Positions 20,723-30,035 of a stretch of DNA of 64,000 nucleotides are shown in pieces. Position numbers and translations under genes: made by a program. The first letter of the stretch is position 1, and each line of letters starts with the position of its first letter. The notes under the pieces are model-generated. The model saw nothing but the letters and a program-made list of their open reading frames with translations. It was not told where the DNA came from and did no database searches. Source of the DNA: Pyxidicoccus sp. MSG2 (GTDB taxonomy: Bacteria; Myxococcota; Myxococcia; Myxococcales; Myxococcaceae); the NCBI RefSeq assembly GCF_026626705.1, contig NZ_JAPNKC010000001.1:5660001-5724000 (forward strand). The letters are read 5' to 3'.

Positions 20723-22795
20723 TCAGGCGCTGGGGATGCCCCGGGCCCGGGCCCTGACGCGCGCGGCCTCCTCTGCATGGCCCGTCTCCTCCAGGAGCGC
20801 GGCCGCGCGGTGGTACAGCACGGCCGCCTCCAGGTGGCGCAGGGCCGCGGCCTCCGCGTTGGCGGCGGCCACCAGGAAGGGCGCGGCCCGGCGCGGCTCG
20901 TTGCCTTCCATCCAGTGTTGCGCCACCACCGCCGGCGCGGCCTGGCGCACTTCCAGCGCAGCCGCGAGCCTCCGGTGGAGCAGGGCCTCCAGCGAGCGCG
21001 GCACGCCCTGGCGCACCACCTCGAAGAGCAAGTCGTGGGTGAAGCGCTCACCCCGGAAGATTTGCGCCGCCTCCAGCTCCGCCACGTGCGTGGCGAGCGA
21101 GAGCGCCGGCATCTCCAGCACCTCGCTGGCCAGCTCCAGCCCGAAGTCCGTGCGCGCCAGCGCCGCCAGCCGCGCCACCTGGAGCGCCGGTGGGGACAGC
21201 CGCTCCAGGCGCTGCTGGATGAGCTGCCGCAGTCGGACGGAGGGCGTGACGTGCTCGGGCCAACCGCGCTCCAGCCCACCCGTCTCCAGCAAATCCTTGA
21301 GCGTCTCGGTGATGAAGAGCGGGTTGCCGCCGGTGTGCCGCGTCACGTCTCGTGTGAGTCGCTCGGCGCCGGGCAAATCCAGGCTGCCCAGCAGCGCGCC
21401 CACCGCGTCCGCGCCCAGTGGCTCCAGCTCGATGACGACGGCCAGTCCCGCCACCACCAGTTGCTGCACGCAGGCGACGGCCCCGGGGGACAGCTCGTCG
21501 CTGCGGTAGGTGTCGATGAAGCGCGGGAAGCGGCCTCCCGGCCCGGGCGGATGGCGGCGCGACAGCATCAGCACCGCGAACTCGGCGGTGGCGGAGTCCA
21601 TGAACTGCAAGTCATCCGCGACGAGCGCGTCCACGCCGGAGCACAGCTCGTAGATGAGCTGGCAGTGCGCTTCGAGGAAGCGGCTGCGGTCTGCCTCGTC
21701 CGCCATGGGCGGGGGTGGCCCCTCATGACCGGCCAGGTCCGGTAACAGCCGCGCCAGCTCGCGCCGCACCCAGGGCTCCAGCTTCGGGTCCGGCACCCGG
21801 GCCAAGAGCTGCCGCATCAGCCTCACGTGGGACGCGTACGGCACGTTCTGCTCGCCGGGTCGCGCCTCCAGCATGAAGTGCGTGCCGCGCGACGCGGCGA
21901 AGTCATGCGCCAGGCGCGTCTTGCCCACGCCGGGCTCGCCGGCGAGGAAGATGGTCTGCCCCGCCTCCCACGCCGCCTCCATGCGTGCCCACTCGCGCTC
22001 GCGTCCCACCAGCACCGGCGGGCGCAGCACGGACAGTGGCAGTTTCGGCTTCGGCGGCGGGCCGGGCTTCGCGGCCGTCGGGCCGCGCTCGATTTCGCGC
22101 GCCAGTGCCACCGTCTCCGGCAGCGGCGTGGTGTCCAGCTCCTCGCGCAGCAGGCGGCGGCAGCGCTCGAAGGCGTTGAGCGCGGCCATCCTGTCTCCGG
22201 CCACGTAGTGCAGCCGCATCAGCCGGCGCCACGCCTCTTCCGAGTACGGGTCCATGCCCAGCAGCCGCTCCGCGAGCAGGAGCGCTCCGGACAAATCCCC
22301 CCGGCGCTCGGACGCGTCGGACTCCAGCGCCGCGGCCCGGCGGCGCAGCTTGTCCAGCCGCTCCCGCGCGCCCTCCAGCCACGCCTGGAACTCGGTGCAG
22401 TCCTCGTACTCCAGCGCGCCCAGCAGCACGCCATCCAGTTGCAGGGCCTGGGCGTGACGCCCCGCGAGCACGTGCGCCTGCAGCTCCGACGCGTCCGCGA
22501 CGACGCGCTCGCAGAGGGAGAGCACGTCCGCGCCCTGGACCAATTCCGCGCCGCACGCGAGCCGCAGCCGGCGCAGCAGCTGTCGCATGTTGTTTCGCGC
22601 CGTCGTCTCGCTGGACTCGGCCCACAGCAGGCCCGCGAGCCGATACTTGGGGTGCGGCCCTTCGAGCGCGAGCCACGCCAGCACTCCGGCCGTGCGCCGC
22701 TCCAGGGGAATGAGTCCCTCTCCGCTCCGAAGCCGGGCTTCGCCCAGCAGCTCCAGGCGGTAGTCCTGCGTGCCTGCCGCGTCGTCTCCTGCCAT
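20723..22795 (-). CDS. BTAD/AfsR-like transcriptional regulator with STAND ATPase domain
   Basis: 690 residues. An N-terminal winged-helix segment (YRLELLGEARLRSGEGLIPL...ARNNMRQLLRRLR) is followed by a bacterial transcriptional activation domain (about residues 95-235; EEAWRRLMRLHYVAGDRMAA). An ATPase of the STAND class comes next, with Walker A GEPGVGKTRLAHDF (Lys292) and a helical C-terminus. Such proteins are ATP-dependent activators, often of secondary metabolism. The ATG at 22795 has GGGGAGG close upstream. It is divergent from the aromatic monooxygenase at 23037 across a 241-base gap, which suggests it may control that gene. This is an inference. Confidence 0.85.
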   Translation of the reverse strand: MAGDDAAGTQDYRLELLGEARLRSGEGLIPLERRTAGVLAWLALEGPHPKYRLAGLLWAESSETTARNNMRQLLRRLRLACGAELVQGADVLSLCERVVADASELQAHVLAGRHAQALQLDGVLLGALEYEDCTEFQAWLEGARERLDKLRRRAAALESDASERRGDLSGALLLAERLLGMDPYSEEAWRRLMRLHYVAGDRMAALNAFERCRRLLREELDTTPLPETVALAREIERGPTAAKPGPPPKPKLPLSVLRPPVLVGREREWARMEAAWEAGQTIFLAGEPGVGKTRLAHDFAASRGTHFMLEARPGEQNVPYASHVRLMRQLLARVPDPKLEPWVRRELARLLPDLAGHEGPPPPMADEADRSRFLEAHCQLIYELCSGVDALVADDLQFMDSATAEFAVLMLSRRHPPGPGGRFPRFIDTYRSDELSPGAVACVQQLVVAGLAVVIELEPLGADAVGALLGSLDLPGAERLTRDVTRHTGGNPLFITETLKDLLETGGLERGWPEHVTPSVRLRQLIQQRLERLSPPALQVARLAALARTDFGLELASEVLEMPALSLATHVAELEAAQIFRGERFTHDLLFEVVRQGVPRSLEALLHRRLAAALEVRQAAPAVVAQHWMEGNEPRRAAPFLVAAANAEAAALRHLEAAVLYHRAAALLEETGHAEEAARVRARARGIPSA

Positions 22796-23036
22796 GTCCT
22801 CCCCGGCCCCCCGAGGTTGGGAGAGGCGCCAACGTAACACGGTGAGCCGGGGCCGCCGTCACGGGTAGGGATTGCCCCAGCACTGACCCCAGCACTGACA
22901 ATCCTTGTCATGTGGGTTTCCCGCTATACGGCAGCTCGCCACTCTGGGCGGAAGCCGTAAAAACCCGTGAAGGCCGTCACAGCGTGGTCACACCCTTTGG
23001 TTAATCAATATGCTTGAGATTACCCCAGGAGGCGCC

Positions 23037-24599
23037 ATGGGTTGTGACAGCCAGCAGTCCGACATGCAGGTCGATGTCATCATTAGCGGCTGCGGTCCGG
23101 TGGGGGCGCTCACGGGCAACCTGCTCGGACTGATGGGTGTGAAGACGCTGCTGCTGGAGCGGGACACCGCGCCGCACGGCGAGCCGCGGGCCTTCTCGTG
23201 CGACGACGAGGGGCTGCGCATCTACCAGGCCACGGGGCTCCTGGAGCTGCTCCAGAAGGACATGCGGGAGACGCGCTTCGCCGAGTACGTGGGCGGCTCC
23301 GGCAAGCGCTTCGCCGAGATTCACACGGGCGAGGCGGACTTCGGCTTCGGGCACACGCCGCTGTGGTTCTTCCACCAGCCGCTGCTGGAGGGCGCGCTGC
23401 GCGACGGGCTGCGCCGCTTCCCGCACGTGGAGCTGCGCACGGGCGTGGCCTTCGAGAGCGCGGACCAGCGCCCCGACGGGGTGACGGTGCGCTACCGCGA
23501 GGTGGCCAGCGGCGAGGAGCGCACGGTGCGCGCGCGGTACCTGCTGGCGTGTGACGGCGCGCGCAGCGCGGTGCGCAAGTCGCTGGGCATCCCCATGTCG
23601 GGCAAGGCCTACGGCGAGCCCTGGCTGGCGGTGTCCGGCACCATCGACGGGGAGGCGCCCGACATCTGCCGCTTCGTGTGCGACCCGAAGCGCCCCGCCT
23701 TCGTGGCGACGGGCGCGGTGAATCAGCTCCGCTGGGAGTTCATGATGCTGCCCGGCGAGACGCGCGAGGAGCTGGAGAAGCCGGAGACGATTGGGAAGCT
23801 CATCGCGCCGTACATCGACCCGAAGCGCGTCCACATCGAGCGCGCGCAGGTGTACACGTTCCACTGCCTCAGCGCGGCGCGCTGGCGCGAGGGCAACATC
23901 TTCCTGCTGGGCGACGCGGCGCACACCATGCCGCCCTTCATGGGCCAGGGGCTGGTGTCCGGCCTGCGCGACGCGGCGAACCTCGCCTGGAAGCTGAAGC
24001 GGGTGATTCACGGGCAGGCGCCCGCGACGCTGCTGGACACCTACGAGGCGGAGCGCCGCCCGCACGTGGCGGAGGTGCAGAAGCTGTGCGTGCGTGTGGG
24101 GCACCTGTTCCTGGCGCGCAACCCCGTGCTGGCCGCGGCCCGCGACGCGCTGATGCGCACGCTGCAGCGGATTCCGAGCGTGCGCGACTTCATCCAGGGC
24201 TTCAAGTTCAAGCAGCCCCCGCTCCACGAGAACGGCTTCTACTTCGGGGGCAAGGGCACGTACTTCATCCAGCCCCGCGTGCGGCTGGAGTCGGGGGAGG
24301 AGGTGCTCCTCGACGACGCCCTGGGAAACGACTTCACGGTGATGTGCCGGTGGGACGCTCCCCAGGCGGAGCTGACCGCGGCGCGCGAGCTGGCCGAGTC
24401 CCTGGGGGGCCGGCTGGTGACGTTCCGCCCCGAGGCCGCGAAGTCCGAGGCCTCCGCCGTGGTGGACGTCACCGGGAAGCTGACGGAGTGGTTCTCCCGC
24501 CAGGCCGCCGACGTGGTGGTGCTGCGTCCGGACCGCTTCGTCTTCGGCGCGGTGAAGGCCGCGCGCCTCCCGGAGCTGCGCGAGGCGCTGGGCGTCTGA
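23037..24599 (+). CDS. FAD-dependent aromatic ring monooxygenase (MhpA-like)
   Basis: 520 residues; AGGAGG lies 5 bases before the ATG. It is a class A flavoprotein hydroxylase: FAD-binding VDVIISGCGPVGALTGNLLG at the N-terminus, the middle LLACDGARSAVRKSLGI, and GDAAHTMPPFMGQGLVSGLR. The last is followed by RDAANLAWKL, typical of MhpA and related phenol hydroxylases. A C-terminal thioredoxin-like extension fits the family. It would put a hydroxyl on a phenolic ring using NAD(P)H and O2. No ring-cleavage genes are near, so catabolic use is not shown; tailoring of a metabolite is equally possible. The divergent regulator at 20723 may control it. Confidence 0.88.
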   Translation: MGCDSQQSDMQVDVIISGCGPVGALTGNLLGLMGVKTLLLERDTAPHGEPRAFSCDDEGLRIYQATGLLELLQKDMRETRFAEYVGGSGKRFAEIHTGEADFGFGHTPLWFFHQPLLEGALRDGLRRFPHVELRTGVAFESADQRPDGVTVRYREVASGEERTVRARYLLACDGARSAVRKSLGIPMSGKAYGEPWLAVSGTIDGEAPDICRFVCDPKRPAFVATGAVNQLRWEFMMLPGETREELEKPETIGKLIAPYIDPKRVHIERAQVYTFHCLSAARWREGNIFLLGDAAHTMPPFMGQGLVSGLRDAANLAWKLKRVIHGQAPATLLDTYEAERRPHVAEVQKLCVRVGHLFLARNPVLAAARDALMRTLQRIPSVRDFIQGFKFKQPPLHENGFYFGGKGTYFIQPRVRLESGEEVLLDDALGNDFTVMCRWDAPQAELTAARELAESLGGRLVTFRPEAAKSEASAVVDVTGKLTEWFSRQAADVVVLRPDRFVFGAVKAARLPELREALGV

Positions 24600-24630
24600 G
24601 GCCTCCGCGCCGTGACTCTCCGCGGAGAAT

Positions 24631-24674
24631 CAACTAAGGGCTTAGTTGACGAACAACTAAGGACTTAGTAGTTT
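24631..24674 (+). promoter_or_regulatory. Two palindromic operators and promoter of the blaI-like operon
   Basis: A perfect palindrome CAACTAAG-GG-CTTAGTTG (24631-24648) is followed by a second copy ACTAAG-GA-CTTAGT (24655-24670), with dyad centres 23 bases apart. TTGACG (24646-24651) and TAGTTT (24669-24674), spaced 17 bases, could be the -35 and -10 and would be covered by the operators. They lie 22 bases before the GTG of the repressor gene. BlaI/MecI proteins bind paired dyads of this size, so auto-repression is expected. Confidence 0.85.
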
Positions 24675-24695
24675 GCTGGCCACGGAGGAACTCAC

Positions 24696-25094
24696 GTGGC
24701 CAGCAAACCCGAGCCCGAAGCGCCCCGGCCGTTGACGCCGGTGGAGCTCGAGCTGATGCAATTCGTGTGGAAGCAGGGTGAGGTGAGCGTGGCGGACGTG
24801 CTCGCCGCGCTGCCGCCGGAGCGCGCGCTCGCGTACACCTCGGTGTCCACCGTCCTTCGGATTCTGGAGCAGAAGGGCGTGGTGCGAAGCCGCAAGCAGG
24901 GGCGGGGGCACCTGTACTCGGCGGTACTGCCGCGCGAGGCGTACGAGGCACAGAGCGTGCGCCACCTGGTGGACACGCTCTTCTCGGGCACGCCGTCCGC
25001 GCTCGTGGCCCGGCTGGTGGAGGCCGTGCCGCTGGCGCCCGACGAGGTGGAGCAGATCCGCAAGCTGCTCAAGGCGAAGGGGGACAAGTCATGA
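24696..25094 (+). CDS. BlaI/MecI family transcriptional repressor
   Basis: 132 residues from a GTG preceded by GGAGGA. The winged-helix domain LTPVELELMQFVWKQGEVSV...LAYTSVSTVLRILEQKGVV is the BlaI/MecI signature. It is followed by the helical dimerisation part (LVDTLFSGTPSALVARLVEA). Members block transcription as dimers and are removed by proteolysis when a partner M56 sensor protease is activated. The stop overlaps the start of the M56 gene (ATGA), so the two are co-translated. Two palindromes upstream are the probable operators. No beta-lactamase gene is beside it. Confidence 0.92.
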   Translation: MASKPEPEAPRPLTPVELELMQFVWKQGEVSVADVLAALPPERALAYTSVSTVLRILEQKGVVRSRKQGRGHLYSAVLPREAYEAQSVRHLVDTLFSGTPSALVARLVEAVPLAPDEVEQIRKLLKAKGDKS

Positions 25095-26707
25095 GCGCCG
25101 TCCTCCGGGAGCTCGCCTCCCTCTATCTGGCCGTGGCGCTGCTGCTGCCGGTGGCACTGCTGCTCTCGCGGGTGGCGCTGGCCGTCCTCGCGCGGCTGGG
25201 GGCGCCGCTGTCCGCGCGGCAGTCCCTGGGCGTGGGGCGGGGCGCGCTGCTGCTGGCGCTCGTCCTGCCGCTCGTGGCGACGGTGGCGCACGCGGTGTCC
25301 CCGGCCGGGCCCCTCTTCGACTTCGAGCGCTCGGTGGCGCGGCACGCGGGACGCCTGCCCGGACCCGCCTGGGATGCACCCCCGCCCCGGCCCGTCGCGA
25401 GCCCTCGCGAGTCCTTGCCCACGTCCTTTCCCGTGTTGCCCGCCGCCACGCTCGTGATTGTCATTGGCGCGTCTGTCTTTACCGCCCGGGCCCTGATTCG
25501 TCACCAGCGCCTGCTGCGGAAGCTGGAGTCCTGGCCCCACGTGCGCGGCGTGGGCCGCGTCCGCGTGGTGCTGGGCGAGGAGGGCACGCCCGCCTTCTCC
25601 GCGTGGTTCCCGCGCCTGGGCGGCGGGCCTTCCGCATGGGTGGTGGTGCCTCCTGCCGTGCTCGGTGACGCGGAGTCGCTGCGCCTCACGGTGCTGCACG
25701 AATTGCAGCACCACCGCCAGCGCGACACGCATCTGGCCTTCGCGCGCCTGGTCCTCACTGGCGCCTTCTTCTGGCATCCCGCCGCGCACATGTTGTCGCG
25801 CTGGCTCGTCTCGCTGCAGGAACTGGCGTGTGACGAGGCGCTGGTGGCGGGCGGCCGGGCCCAGGCGCACGCGTATGCCCGCTGTCTGCTTCAAGCGGCG
25901 CTCACCCTTCCGGGAGCGCCGCCGCTTCCCGCCGGAGCCACCGGCATGTCCCATCCCACCGCGAGGAGAATCGAAATGCTGTTCCAACCCCGTCCCCTGC
26001 GCACCCACGGCGCCGCGGCGCTGCTATCCGCGCTCTTCCTGGTCCTCCTTCCCCTGGCGACGCTGGCCCAGGGCGCGGCGCGCGGCCGCACGGTGACGCT
26101 CGCGGAGGCGAAGGCGCTCGCCGAGTCCAGCCAGCCCGCCGGAGACCTGCCAGTGGTGGTGGACGCGAAGGTGGTGGAGCAGCTCAACCGGCTCATCGGC
26201 ACGGAGAAGGGCCGCGCCTTCATGAAGCGCGCGCTGGCGAACCTGGGGACGCACCGCGAGGCCCTGCTGACGGGCCTGCGCGCCAGGAACCTGCCCGAGG
26301 GGCTGCTGGCCGTGGCGGTGGTGGAGTCCGCGGTGACGAACATGTCCGAGACGGACGGACGCCCGTCGCTGGCCCCCGGCATGCGCGGCGCGGGCGTGTG
26401 GATGTTCATCCCCGAGACGGCGCGCCGCTACGGGCTGGAGGTGAGCGCCACCAAGGACGAGCGGCTGGACGTGACGCGCGAGACGCAGGCCGCCGCGGCC
26501 CTGCTGTCGGACCTGCACGCGCAGTACAGCGACTGGCGGCTGGCGCTCGCGGCCTACAACCAGGGCGACAAGAAGGTGGCCGAGGCGCTCGCCCAGGGCG
26601 GCAGCCGCGACGTGAGCGCGCTCATGGCCTCCGGCCGGCTCAACGACTACACGGCCACCGTGCAGGCCGGTCTGCTCATCGTCCGCAATCCGCACCTGCT
26701 GGACTGA
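25091..26707 (+). CDS. M56 (BlaR1/MecR1-type) membrane protease fused to a lytic transglycosylase domain
   Basis: 538 residues. The N-terminal half is a multi-pass M56 peptidase: hydrophobic helices, then zinc motif HELQHHRQRDT (His203, Glu204, His207) and ELACDE (Glu244). After a membrane segment (LLSALFLVLLPLATLAQG) the outer part is not the penicillin-binding sensor of BlaR1. It is a goose-lysozyme/MltD-like transglycosylase domain instead: LAVAVVESAV (Glu412 probable catalytic acid), GAGVWMFIPETARRYGL, DWRLALAAYNQGDKKVAEAL. The reading frame is continuous, so this is a true fusion. Together with the overlapping BlaI-type repressor it suggests that peptidoglycan or its fragments, bound or cut by the outer domain, trigger repressor cleavage. 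Confidence 0.88.
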   Translation: MSAVLRELASLYLAVALLLPVALLLSRVALAVLARLGAPLSARQSLGVGRGALLLALVLPLVATVAHAVSPAGPLFDFERSVARHAGRLPGPAWDAPPPRPVASPRESLPTSFPVLPAATLVIVIGASVFTARALIRHQRLLRKLESWPHVRGVGRVRVVLGEEGTPAFSAWFPRLGGGPSAWVVVPPAVLGDAESLRLTVLHELQHHRQRDTHLAFARLVLTGAFFWHPAAHMLSRWLVSLQELACDEALVAGGRAQAHAYARCLLQAALTLPGAPPLPAGATGMSHPTARRIEMLFQPRPLRTHGAAALLSALFLVLLPLATLAQGAARGRTVTLAEAKALAESSQPAGDLPVVVDAKVVEQLNRLIGTEKGRAFMKRALANLGTHREALLTGLRARNLPEGLLAVAVVESAVTNMSETDGRPSLAPGMRGAGVWMFIPETARRYGLEVSATKDERLDVTRETQAAAALLSDLHAQYSDWRLALAAYNQGDKKVAEALAQGGSRDVSALMASGRLNDYTATVQAGLLIVRNPHLLD

Positions 26708-26922: not shown

Positions 26923-28596
26923 ATGCGTTCCTCACATGAAGTGCGCGCTGTTTGGATTCACGGCCTGCTCCTGGCGGCCGTGCTGGTGCTGCCGTCGGCG
27001 GCGTGGGCGGACTCGAAGAGCAGCGCGTGGGTGAGCTCCACCGGCCGGACACTCGAGAACCCACGGTTCCGGTTGGAGCTGTCGGCGCCCGCGACGGTGA
27101 CGCTCGACCTGATGTCCTCCGTCGACACCTATCTCTACCTGCTCAACCAGGACGGCTCGCAGCTCATCGCCCAGGATGACGACAGCGGCGGCAACTTCAA
27201 CAGCCGGCTGACGGTGTCGCTGGGAGCCGGCAGGTACATGCTCGTCGCGGCGACCTATTCAGCGGGCCAGCGCGGGGACTTCACACTCAACAGCAGCCAG
27301 GGCGGCCTGGCCTATTGCTTCCAGGCGTACGCGGACACGAACTACTCCGGCGCCTCCAACACCTTCTGCGAGGGCGGAAGCCAGCCCTTCATGAACGACG
27401 CGTACTCGTCCATCCGCGTCCCCAAGGGCATGCGCGTGCGCGCCTATGAGCACGGCGGCGGCGTGGGGCTGGCGCGGACGTACTTCCAGGACGTGCCGAA
27501 CGTGGGCGGGCTCTACAACGACATGATTTCGAGCTTCTCGTGGTCCAACTTCCAGACGAACGACTTCTTCATGGTCTTCGCCTCGGACCCGCAGTTCTCC
27601 TGGAAGCACTGCAACGACGGGCCGGGCCCGCTCTGTGACAGGGAGAACCAGGTCTTCGCGGGATGGAACGACGACGACCTGGCGCGCTACTACAACACCA
27701 ACGTCGTCAATGGCATCAACCAGGTGAAGAACCTGCTGGGCGAGTACCGGTTCGGCGGCACCGTGGTGAACGGCGACCTGACGGAGTTCGGAAACCAGGA
27801 CGTGGACCTGGGCGACTACATCAACATCTACGAGCACGGCGTGCAGTCCAACGTCTACCTGGGCCTGGGCAATCACGACTACGCCAACAACGTGAATGAC
27901 TGCTACGAGAACCAGTGCGCCACGGGCATGGTCTGGTACTTCAAGGACCAGGTCTGGACGCTCAACGCCACGCGCTTCGACTACTCGGAGAGCGGCGTCT
28001 ATTACGAGTTCCCCAGCAACCGGAAGAACCACACGGGCAGCCTGGGGTACTCGTGGGACATCGGCAAGGTCCACTTCGCCCAGCTCAACAACTACCCCAC
28101 GTACACGCGCGACTGGAACGGCTGGAACTTCAGCGCGGCGCGCCGCGACTACTTCTACATCCAGTCCGCCATCAACTGGCTGCGAAGCGACCTGCAGGAC
28201 GCCGTCAATCGCGGGCAGGAAATCGTCGTCAACATGCACGACTGGGGCTCCGGCGCGAGCACGGAGATGATGTCGGTGCTGAACGACTTCCCTGTCTCCG
28301 CCGTCTACGCGGGCCACTATCACGGCAGCTATGGCCGGTATGACACGCGGTGGATGAACGACGGCAAGCCGCTGCCCGTGTTCCTCAGCGGCTCGGCCCA
28401 CCTGGGCACCTTCCTGGTGACCCGCTTCGTGAACGGCAAGACGTACACGTGGGTCATGGCCGTGGACCAGTTCAACGGCGGCCAGCTGCGCGTGCTCTAC
28501 AACGGCACCTACTACCCCGCGGCCTCCACGCCCGGCCTCTTCGACACCTGCGCCGGGTGCTCGCGCTACTACCAGGAAGTGTTCGACATGCGCTGA
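26923..28596 (+). CDS. Secreted metallophosphoesterase with PPC and beta/gamma-crystallin-like domains
   Basis: 557 residues. The signal peptide ends near SAAWA. Residues about 35-120 form a PPC-type beta domain (FRLELSAPATVTLDLMSS...YLYLLNQDGSQLIAQDDDSG). Residues about 130-215 look like a beta/gamma-crystallin fold (YADTNYSG, SSIRVPKGMRVRAYEHG, NDMISSFSW). The catalytic calcineurin-like domain follows: VVNGDLTE (Asp285), GNHDY (Asn317-His318-Asp319), VVNMHDWG, GHYHG (His465, His467). These residues bind the two-metal centre. It is a secreted phosphomonoesterase or diesterase of unknown substrate. The 215-base gap before it shows no clear regulatory motif. Confidence 0.87.
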   Translation: MRSSHEVRAVWIHGLLLAAVLVLPSAAWADSKSSAWVSSTGRTLENPRFRLELSAPATVTLDLMSSVDTYLYLLNQDGSQLIAQDDDSGGNFNSRLTVSLGAGRYMLVAATYSAGQRGDFTLNSSQGGLAYCFQAYADTNYSGASNTFCEGGSQPFMNDAYSSIRVPKGMRVRAYEHGGGVGLARTYFQDVPNVGGLYNDMISSFSWSNFQTNDFFMVFASDPQFSWKHCNDGPGPLCDRENQVFAGWNDDDLARYYNTNVVNGINQVKNLLGEYRFGGTVVNGDLTEFGNQDVDLGDYINIYEHGVQSNVYLGLGNHDYANNVNDCYENQCATGMVWYFKDQVWTLNATRFDYSESGVYYEFPSNRKNHTGSLGYSWDIGKVHFAQLNNYPTYTRDWNGWNFSAARRDYFYIQSAINWLRSDLQDAVNRGQEIVVNMHDWGSGASTEMMSVLNDFPVSAVYAGHYHGSYGRYDTRWMNDGKPLPVFLSGSAHLGTFLVTRFVNGKTYTWVMAVDQFNGGQLRVLYNGTYYPAASTPGLFDTCAGCSRYYQEVFDMR

Positions 28597-28600
28597 GGCT

Positions 28601-29950
28601 TCAGCTCCGCGGATACACCCGCGGAGCCGGGTCTCCCCGCCACAGCGTCTCCAGCGTCTTCGGCGTGAATCTCACGCGCAGCCTGTCGGAGCCGTCGACG
28701 GCGAACAGTCCGTCCGCCGTCAGCGGTGACAGGCGGCGGGTGGGGCGGTCGGGCCGTGCCATCCAGAGCGCGCCCTCGCGCACGCTCACCTCGACCTCGC
28801 CGTAGCGTCCGGCGAGCGACTTCAGCCGGGCCGCCGCGACAGAGATGGGCTTCAGGCGTGCCTCCACGTCGAGCCGCGCCCACTCGTAGTCGGCCAGGGC
28901 ATCGGGTGACACGCCCGGTGCCGCCGCCAGGCGCTTGAAGGCCAGCAACTGGGCGACCTCCAGCGCCTGGGCGGGCGGCGTCTCCACGGTGGGCGGGACG
29001 CCGACGCCCTCCCAGTTGGTGCCGCTGACCGGATGCACCGGGCGGCCGAAGGAGACGCTCAGCATGAAGCCGGGGGAGATGGGGACGAAGCGGTTGTTGT
29101 TGGCCGCGCCTGCCGTCTTCGTGCCGACCAGTTCGCCCAGCTTGAACTGCGCCACGTCGTAGGCGAAGGCCTCGCCCGCGGAGGCCACGCCGCCGTCGAT
29201 GAGCACGTACAACGGCTTGCCCTTCAGTCGCCCCGCCGGGACGTGCTCCAGGGTGCGCGACTGCGCCGGTGGCTTCGAGCCCTCCAGGAAGGTCATCTCC
29301 AGGACGTCCTCGTCCAGGAAGTGGCTGACCAGGTAGCGCACGGCCGCGTGCGAGCCGCCGCCGTTGCCGCGCAGGTCGATGACCACCGCGTCGCCGTCCC
29401 GCAGGAAGCGCAGCGCTTCGTCGTAGACCGCGCCCGTCTCGTCGCGGACCCATTCGAAGCCGGTGATGCGCAGGTAGCGGAGGTTGCCGGGCAGGAGCTT
29501 CAGCTCCGCGAGGCCGTGGTGGTCCCTGAGGGCCTCCTGGCGGAAGAGCGCGTCGCTGTCCGCGCCCTCGCTCGGTGACGCATGCGAGAGCTTGCGCAGC
29601 TCGGCGGCGTACTCGGTGGGGTTGTAGTGGATGTAGAGGTGGCCGTCTCCGCTGGCGGCCCCGAGGTCCGAGGTGATGCGCTCGGCCAGCAGCGCCGCGT
29701 CGTCCACGGTGTAGCGCCCGGCCTTCCGGGATTGCTCCAGTCGCTCGGCGATGGCGGGGACCTTCTCGGGCAGGACGTAGGACTCGCGGATGACCGCGAT
29801 GATGGCTGCCAGCGCTGCGTCTCGGTCGGCGGGGGAGAGGGTGCGCGGCGCGGAGCGCTCGGACGCGGGCGCGACCTGGGCCGCCGCGGGGCCGGGGGAC
29901 AGCGTGAGCAGCAGCGACGTCAGGGCCGCGGTCAGGCTTCGGGAGTGCAT
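28601..29950 (-). CDS. Exported S41 family peptidase (IRBP-like)
   Basis: 449 residues from the ATG at 29950 (GGAG upstream), with signal peptide MHSRSLTAALTSLLLTLSPG...AAA. An N-terminal helical part (IIAVIRESYVLPEKVPAIAE) is typical of IRBP/tricorn-type S41 enzymes lacking a PDZ domain. The core has AVVIDLRGNGGGSHAAVRYL and the nucleophile motif GGVASAGEAF (Ser257). A C-terminal beta extension (VEVSVREGALWMARPDRPTR) resembles add-on domains of this group. It works in the periplasm or outside. It follows the MarR gene on the same strand by 86 bases and converges tightly with the phosphoesterase gene (4 bases). Confidence 0.87.
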   Translation of the reverse strand: MHSRSLTAALTSLLLTLSPGPAAAQVAPASERSAPRTLSPADRDAALAAIIAVIRESYVLPEKVPAIAERLEQSRKAGRYTVDDAALLAERITSDLGAASGDGHLYIHYNPTEYAAELRKLSHASPSEGADSDALFRQEALRDHHGLAELKLLPGNLRYLRITGFEWVRDETGAVYDEALRFLRDGDAVVIDLRGNGGGSHAAVRYLVSHFLDEDVLEMTFLEGSKPPAQSRTLEHVPAGRLKGKPLYVLIDGGVASAGEAFAYDVAQFKLGELVGTKTAGAANNNRFVPISPGFMLSVSFGRPVHPVSGTNWEGVGVPPTVETPPAQALEVAQLLAFKRLAAAPGVSPDALADYEWARLDVEARLKPISVAAARLKSLAGRYGEVEVSVREGALWMARPDRPTRRLSPLTADGLFAVDGSDRLRVRFTPKTLETLWRGDPAPRVYPRS

Positions 29951-30035
29951 CAAAGGCTCCAGGGGGCGGGGGCTCACGGCCGCCGGGCGAGGCAGGCGCA
30001 AGCGCGGGTTCGGGTCATTCGCTCGGGCTCCGTGC

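Follow-up and report, generated by a model that had tools for sequence, protein, structure and literature searches.

What would a BlaI-M56 pair report if its receptor carried a wall-cutting enzyme? Modules that pair an M56 receptor with a repressor are known chiefly as penicillin alarms, and a locus of Pyxidicoccus sp. MSG2 raises this question because there a modified wall-cutting enzyme serves as the sensor on such a chassis. The locus lies in the window, i.e., the whole stretch of 64,000 nucleotides analyzed (contig NZ_JAPNKC010000001.1, positions 5,660,001 to 5,724,000), within a genome of 13.3 Mb, and its features are collected in Table 1. By analogy with related systems, the sensor probably reports cell-wall state.

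Table 1. Features of the locus, in window positions (residues are those of the fusion protein unless BlaI is named; fractions refer to the distinct fusions, MltD proteins, or upstream regions compared).
Feature	Position	Strand	Remarks
Operator 1, palindrome TCAACTAAG-GG-CTTAGTTGA	24630-24649		20 bp, perfect 9-bp arms; conserved
Putative -35, TTGACG	24646-24651	+	Overlaps operator 1; TTGACG in 17/35 upstream regions, TTG-starting in 34/35
Operator 2, AACTAAGGACTTAGTA	24655-24670		Fills the 17-bp spacer; conserved
Putative -10, TAGTTT	24669-24674	+	TAGTTT in 23/35 distinct upstream regions
blaI, BlaI-type repressor	24696-25094	+	132 aa, GTG start; PF03965, 109.1 bits
Arg106-Leu107 of BlaI	25011-25016	+	Counterpart, by alignment, of the staphylococcal BlaI/MecI cleavage bond (Asn101-Phe102); putative
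M56 protease-lytic transglycosylase fusion	25091-26707	+	538 aa, ATG start; Pfam and alignment
Conserved island PxGPxFxFERS, residues 71-81	25301-25333	+	TM2-TM3 loop, place of the BlaR1 EL1 plug; putative role
HELQH zinc motif, residues 203-207	25697-25711	+	36/36
ELACD, ExxxD gluzincin motif, residues 244-248	25820-25834	+	E244 and D248 in 36/36
Fourth transmembrane stretch, about residues 305-328	26003-26074	+	Kyte-Doolittle
MltD-type transglycosylase domain, residues 351-538	26141-26704	+	C-terminal end of protein; Pfam, alignment, structure match
Glu412, catalytic Glu position	26324-26326	+	36/36
Eight-residue insertion, residues 424-431	26360-26383	+	Between ES and GVWM; absent in 16/16 MltD; low model confidence
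Met438, at the motif-II Gln position	26402-26404	+	Met in 36/36; Gln in 16/16 MltD
Ala488-Tyr489-Asn490 (AYN)	26552-26560	+	36/36
Arg516, at the Glu of ETxxY	26636-26638	+	Four before Tyr520; R in 3, H in 26, and K in 7 of 36

An earlier note, made from the letters of the window, had proposed that an HExxH protease and a transglycosylase domain are joined in one continuous frame. This proved correct: the frame contains no internal stop, Pfam recognizes M56 and SLT domains in it, and His203-Glu204-xx-His207 and Glu412 (in a VVESA motif) occupy the positions that the note had given. Of the 147 genomes of the class, 53, which all come from one family, gave a match to the fusion at an E value of ≤1e-20, and since most of these matches were near full length and in one open frame, the fusion is real rather than an assembly join. 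The match starts at a contig edge in three genomes (G058, G064, and G072) and is split in two pieces in two (G057 and G067). No match was obtained in the other 94 genomes, some of which belong to the same family. The named carriers are Myxococcus, Pyxidicoccus, Corallococcus, Archangium, a Myxococcaceae MAG, and one record labeled Comamonas; the counterpart in P. caerfyrddinensis is 95% identical. The record labeled Comamonas sp. KCTC 72670 carries a fusion that is 74% identical, together with blaI, and its label may be wrong.

When 193 genomes of the phylum were searched with the single protein, the full-length hits among the matches listed were confined to the window's own family. Fifteen weaker phylum matches, some of which seemingly reached the protease part, were rejected as fusions, all of them being MltD-like and lacking HExxH. 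Plasmid records gave 59 matches, none covering over 80% of the query, and the 20 of these that were listed align within residues 332 to 535 only. No study of an M56-transglycosylase fusion was found among the open-licence literature matches listed. The NCBI name for such proteins presumably resembles "M56 and MltD domain-containing protein," and a literature search on most of this phrase found no paper.

The note had also described an ATGA overlap between blaI and the fusion gene. The overlap is present in the window but is not universal, as the P. caerfyrddinensis locus has a gap between the two genes. Neighboring genes differ among the 11 sources compared. Upstream in the window, positions 23010 to 24599 hold a gene that is oxygenase-like and encodes an FAD_binding_3 domain (PF01494); near it, a large regulator with BTAD and AAA_16 domains is encoded on the minus strand (20723-22840). 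Downstream are a calcineurin-like phosphoesterase gene (26923-28596, plus strand; weak PPC match, start picked by eye) and, convergent to it, an S41 peptidase gene (28601-30001, minus strand); these two also adjoin the fusion in P. caerfyrddinensis but were not seen at most of the other loci compared.

The domain search assigned the C-terminal part of the receptor to the transglycosylases, as the note had anticipated. The SLT family (PF01464) matched residues 399 to 507 above its curated cutoff (63.4 bits, E = 2e-17) and matched all 21 domains scanned. The nearest NCBIfam model was MltD (PRK10783), with 59.1 bits, far under its cutoff of 508. A structural model of residues 345 to 538 (pLDDT 82.9, pTM 0.82) had Pseudomonas aeruginosa MltD as its first structural match (8rhi; Z = 17.1, rmsd 2.9, 173 residues aligned), and Foldseek matched it to MltD with an E value of 1.8e-6. 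The MltD entries matched (8rhe, 8rhf, and 8rhi) are complexes with bulgecin A. Pfam found no LysM after the domain, the protein stopping at residue 538, and LysM-like repeats were seen by eye in the 15 MltD proteins fetched. Nor did Pfam find a penicillin-binding domain in the fusion, where M56 and SLT were the only families recognized, and the C-terminal domain does not fall in the beta-lactam receptor class (BlaR1/MecR1). Judged by domain content, the proteins belong to the M56 and BlaI families, and the sensor corresponds to MltD in part.

Which parts of MltD were kept was assessed in the fusion proteins with at least 500 residues that the collected loci encode (46 proteins, 36 of them distinct; shorter ones were excluded) and in 16 MltD proteins (15 from the phylum search and one of the same genome). 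Glu412, Ser413, AYN, and Tyr520 are retained in all 36 fusions. With MltD the fusion shares the fold, the catalytic Glu, the Ser that follows it, AYN, and the Tyr. Unlike MltD, the fusion is anchored by a protease, ends after its catalytic domain, has an eight-residue insertion, has Met for the Gln of motif II, and lacks the Glu of ETxxY, which is present (as ET) in 16/16 MltD proteins and is replaced by Arg, His, or Lys in 36/36 fusions. The genome has 15 other SLT domains; by eye, 14 of them carry the motif-II Gln and one (L108) lacks it. Among the seven regions compared, conservation was highest in the sensor (mean of 0.86, versus 0.83 for the protease).

The GLMQI/V motif is described as essential to the architecture of the active site (PMC550655). 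A second active-site Glu (E498 of Cj0843, E580 of LtgA) is described as contacting the acetamide or the inhibitor (PMC5951611 and PMC5372988) and as likely having a part in anhydro-ring closure (PMC5951611). Judging from spacing and from the alignment of the MltD ET with P. aeruginosa Slt, we infer that E498 and E580 correspond to the Glu of ETxxY. The note had envisaged a sensor that "binds or cuts" peptidoglycan; of these two activities, cutting is doubtful because the motif-II Gln and the ETxxY Glu are replaced in every distinct fusion. The sensor is probably an enzyme-derived receptor and not an efficient transglycosylase. The alternative that the fusion is an active lytic transglycosylase, with the protease and repressor only tuning its amount (for instance, in division, sporulation, or predation), appears unlikely: the retained Glu412, Ser413, AYN, and Tyr520 speak for it and may leave room for enzyme activity, whereas the two replacements, the insertion beside the active site, and the roles published for the GLMQI/V motif and the second Glu speak against it.

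The other half of the receptor matched Peptidase_M56 over residues 174 to 297 (53.3 bits against a cutoff of 31). BlaR1 was the nearest NCBIfam model for it, at 18.7 bits, far under the cutoff of 400. Kyte-Doolittle analysis gave hydrophobic stretches at about residues 8 to 34, 48 to 70, 112 to 135, and 305 to 328, and the zinc motif lies after the third of these and before the last. In BlaR1, the protease residues reported are H201, H205, E242xxxD246, D210, Y261, and R293/R294 (PMC9834060). Matched by spacing, H201/H205 correspond to H203/H207 and E242/D246 to E244/D248; by spacing from the zinc motifs, D210 corresponds to D212, Y261 to Y262, and R293/R294 to R292/R293. H203, H207, E244, and D248 are invariant in the 36 distinct fusions; D212, Y262, R292, and R293 are likewise invariant across the 18 sequences aligned. 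A profile of these 18 sequences matched BlaR1 structures weakly (E = 0.07 and 0.11, residues 196 to 275). Given its HExxH and ExxxD motifs and its Pfam score, this half is by sequence an M56 protease, and proteolysis of BlaI by it is predicted.

In BlaR1, EL1, the loop between the second and third helices, occupies the active site of the sensor and is displaced by the drug (PMC9834060). The equivalent loop of the fusion (about residues 71 to 111) is mostly variable outside the PxGPxFxFERS island, of which P71, P74, F76, F78, R80, and S81 are present in 36/36 fusions; this pattern was not found in the four paralogous receptors of the genome. A full-length model had a mean pLDDT of 65 and fell under 50 in the loop (residues 71 to 114), in a protease stretch (150 to 211), and in the loop at 415 to 434. 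This fold is too weak to bear on docking of the periplasmic loop. The sensor might instead grip glycan strands and act as a wall tether or distance gauge, the membrane-wall gap being reported by a pull on the protease with no soluble ligand. The short linker from the fourth transmembrane stretch to the domain (which begins at residue 351) would suit such a device, as would a groove retained while the catalytic equipment changed; we nevertheless regard it as improbable, the BlaR1 precedent being displacement of a loop by a ligand.

The repressor matched Penicillinase_R (PF03965) well above the cutoff of 22.6 bits and aligns with MecI (1sd6). Its domain and the palindromes in its own promoter agree with the BlaI/MecI/CopY family, the operators being predicted binding sites. 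Staphylococcal BlaI and MecI are cleaved at Asn101-Phe102 (PMC9834060). The aligned residues here are Arg106-Leu107 rather than Asn-Phe, both invariant in the 15 BlaI sequences aligned, and the pair may therefore have its own cleavage specificity.

Two palindromic operators in the promoter of the pair had likewise been pointed out in the note. The motif CTAAG-N2-CTTAG, with up to one mismatch, occurs in two places in the whole window, namely, the two operators. Chance expectation for the window is 0.36, and at least two sites arose in 6 of 100 shuffles; the count inside the window alone is weak evidence. We accept the operator pair because of its conservation rather than these statistics: the 45 loci with blaI gave 35 distinct upstream regions, and every one contains two sites at 23 bp, each with ≤2 mismatches. 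The consensus scan for promoters and terminators reported nothing, including at the putative -35 and -10.

On the note's further question, whether the operator marks other BlaI targets, the outcome speaks, by the note's own criterion, against a wide regulon. We searched 42 (8 plus 34) of the 53 fusion genomes with the pattern AACTAAGNNCTTAGTT, allowing ≤2 mismatches, and found this operon and one convincing extra promoter. The 23-bp pair lies upstream of the fusion in 42/42 genomes, where its farther site is separated by 440 to 623 bp from the point at which the receptor match begins; 7 of the 42 have one site in addition to the pair. A control pattern (the same read backwards) gave 1 to 18 sites per genome, so that, the pair aside, the true pattern occurs less often than the control. 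Among 25 genomes of the family without a fusion match, taken from the 94 negatives of the class search, 22 had no site and 3 had some site, 1 of which (G047) had the pair. Since G047 keeps both operators intact with a closely similar blaI, whereas receptor similarity ends after about 22 codons, the operator follows this blaI. The truncated receptor similarity in G047 (L125/L133) adjoins a gene with a GmrSD_N domain, leaving blaI as an orphan repressor.

The convincing extra site, in G105, is again one of a pair at 23 bp, with the second site more diverged. The promoter that holds it is organized likewise (TTGAAA-17-TAGCTT) and precedes a gene for a polysaccharide deacetylase (PF01522) with a signal-like start. 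This deacetylase case (L080, around position 2580) is the sole one seen in the 42 genomes searched. The remaining six extra sites are 2-mismatch matches, and inspection of the one in G043 found no convincing target. A search with 3 mismatches in two genomes gave 28 sites besides the known pair; 12 of these were obtained as loci, and none had a partner at 23 bp. One of the 12, with a weak partner at 22 bp, precedes another blaI of the same genome.

The circuit therefore seems to be mainly self-controlling, and a wider regulon is unsupported. For the most part, the output of the circuit appears to be the receptor; this either sharpens the switch or implies a separate function for the domain. For this reason the enzyme role stays the main rival: the operator being almost confined to this operon, induction would chiefly produce the fusion. 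The operators also bear on a beta-lactam response in disguise, i.e., an indirect response via wall fragments in which the transglycosylase part only modulates. The BlaI-type repressor fits such a response, and a wall dipeptide is described as a coactivator that binds BlaI/MecI (PMC3305447). We consider it very improbable, given that the fusion has no penicillin-binding domain recognized by Pfam and that, of the two extra operator sites inspected (G105 and G043, of seven), neither was seen to precede a beta-lactamase or PBP gene.

The genome encodes four further BlaI-M56 pairs (L001, L002, L003, and L005) with the same pairing of repressor and receptor and with palindromes upstream of each. By eye, these palindromes differ from the operator of the fusion (e.g., ACGAAGACCTTCGT and ACGACGGACGTCGT). 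Their C termini differ as well; Pfam found TonB_C in L002, weak repeat matches in L003, and no further sensor-like domain in L001 and L005. Across the four receptors, the C termini are all different (TonB_C, repeats, proline-rich, and none). M56 receptors thus look like a chassis with exchanged sensors.

Taken together, we favor with moderate confidence, by analogy, a pair of BlaR1 architecture whose receptor responds to peptidoglycan glycan or to a transglycosylase inhibitor. The receptor probably crosses the membrane four times (N-out/C-out topology), with its zinc protease in the cytosol and, in the periplasm, a sensor derived from the catalytic domain of an MltD-type transglycosylase. At rest, BlaI dimers would sit on the operators 23 bp apart and cover the -35 and the spacer between -35 and -10, and the PxGPxFxFERS motif would lie in or near the transglycosylase groove, as EL1 does in the BlaR1 sensor. 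A ligand (a glycan end, an anhydro-muropeptide, or a transglycosylase inhibitor) would bind the altered groove, shift the loop, and open the protease, which would then cut BlaI near Arg106-Leu107. Derepression of the operon would yield more receptor and, in one relative, also the polysaccharide deacetylase. A cytoplasmic wall fragment may contribute, as is reported for BlaI/MecI (PMC3305447). Bulgecin is a possible ligand, suggested by the structures of related enzymes only.

The invariance of the counterparts of the BlaR1 residues checked counts for a BlaR1-like receptor, as do the four hydrophobic stretches, the MltD fold of the sensor, its altered pocket and conservation, the operator pair in 42/42 genomes, and the varied neighbors in the 11 sources. 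Against it count the Arg-Leu rather than Asn-Phe at the aligned bond, the weak profile match to BlaR1 (E = 0.07), the poor full-length model, the retained catalytic Glu, AYN, and Tyr, and the 94 of 147 genomes in which the fusion was not found. That the switch has hardly any target beyond itself is unusual for a stress response and also counts against this reading.

A narrower form of the favored reading is put forward tentatively, as possible and yet rather doubtful: a second wall-drug target enzyme may have been made into an alarm in the style of BlaR1, as a transglycosylase receptor with crippled turnover, gated by a periplasmic loop and reporting the occupancy of its groove. The occupants would then be glycan ends, anhydro-muropeptides, or a bulgecin-like inhibitor.

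The BlaR1 sensor is itself related to an enzyme of wall biology and keeps the catalytic residue. Both it and the sensor of the fusion are wall-enzyme-like domains in which the catalytic residue is kept and the pocket changed. As in BlaR1-BlaI and MecR1-MecI of Staphylococcus and Bacillus licheniformis, the repressor and the M56 receptor are encoded side by side, and the sensor follows the fourth transmembrane stretch; the likeness extends to HExxH, ExxxD, and the counterparts of D210, Y261, and R293/R294. The systems differ in that BlaR1 and MecR1 bind penicillin, whereas the sensor of the fusion is transglycosylase-like, in the aligned Arg-Leu bond of its BlaI, and in that no separate resistance gene was seen under the fusion's operator. 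RsiV, a lysozyme receptor that controls sigma-V, works alike in that an envelope receptor signals that peptidoglycan is under attack, and does so through proteolysis of a regulator (PMC4183432). We claim no kinship with RsiV, in which an anti-sigma factor is cut stepwise, whereas a repressor would be cut in the pair described here.

Because copies of the operator elsewhere are scarce in the genomes searched, the circuit lends itself to clean tests. Should its ligand be glycan or a transglycosylase inhibitor, it would offer a genetic readout of transglycosylase occupancy in living cells; it might serve as a biosensor for compounds like bulgecin and would be a second system for testing how BlaR1-type receptors signal across the membrane. 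The fusion is conserved in many Myxococcus, Pyxidicoccus, and Corallococcus genomes and in some of the Archangium group. Should the sensor indeed be a wall-drug target enzyme turned into an alarm, these predatory soil bacteria would possess a transglycosylase counterpart of the penicillin receptor.
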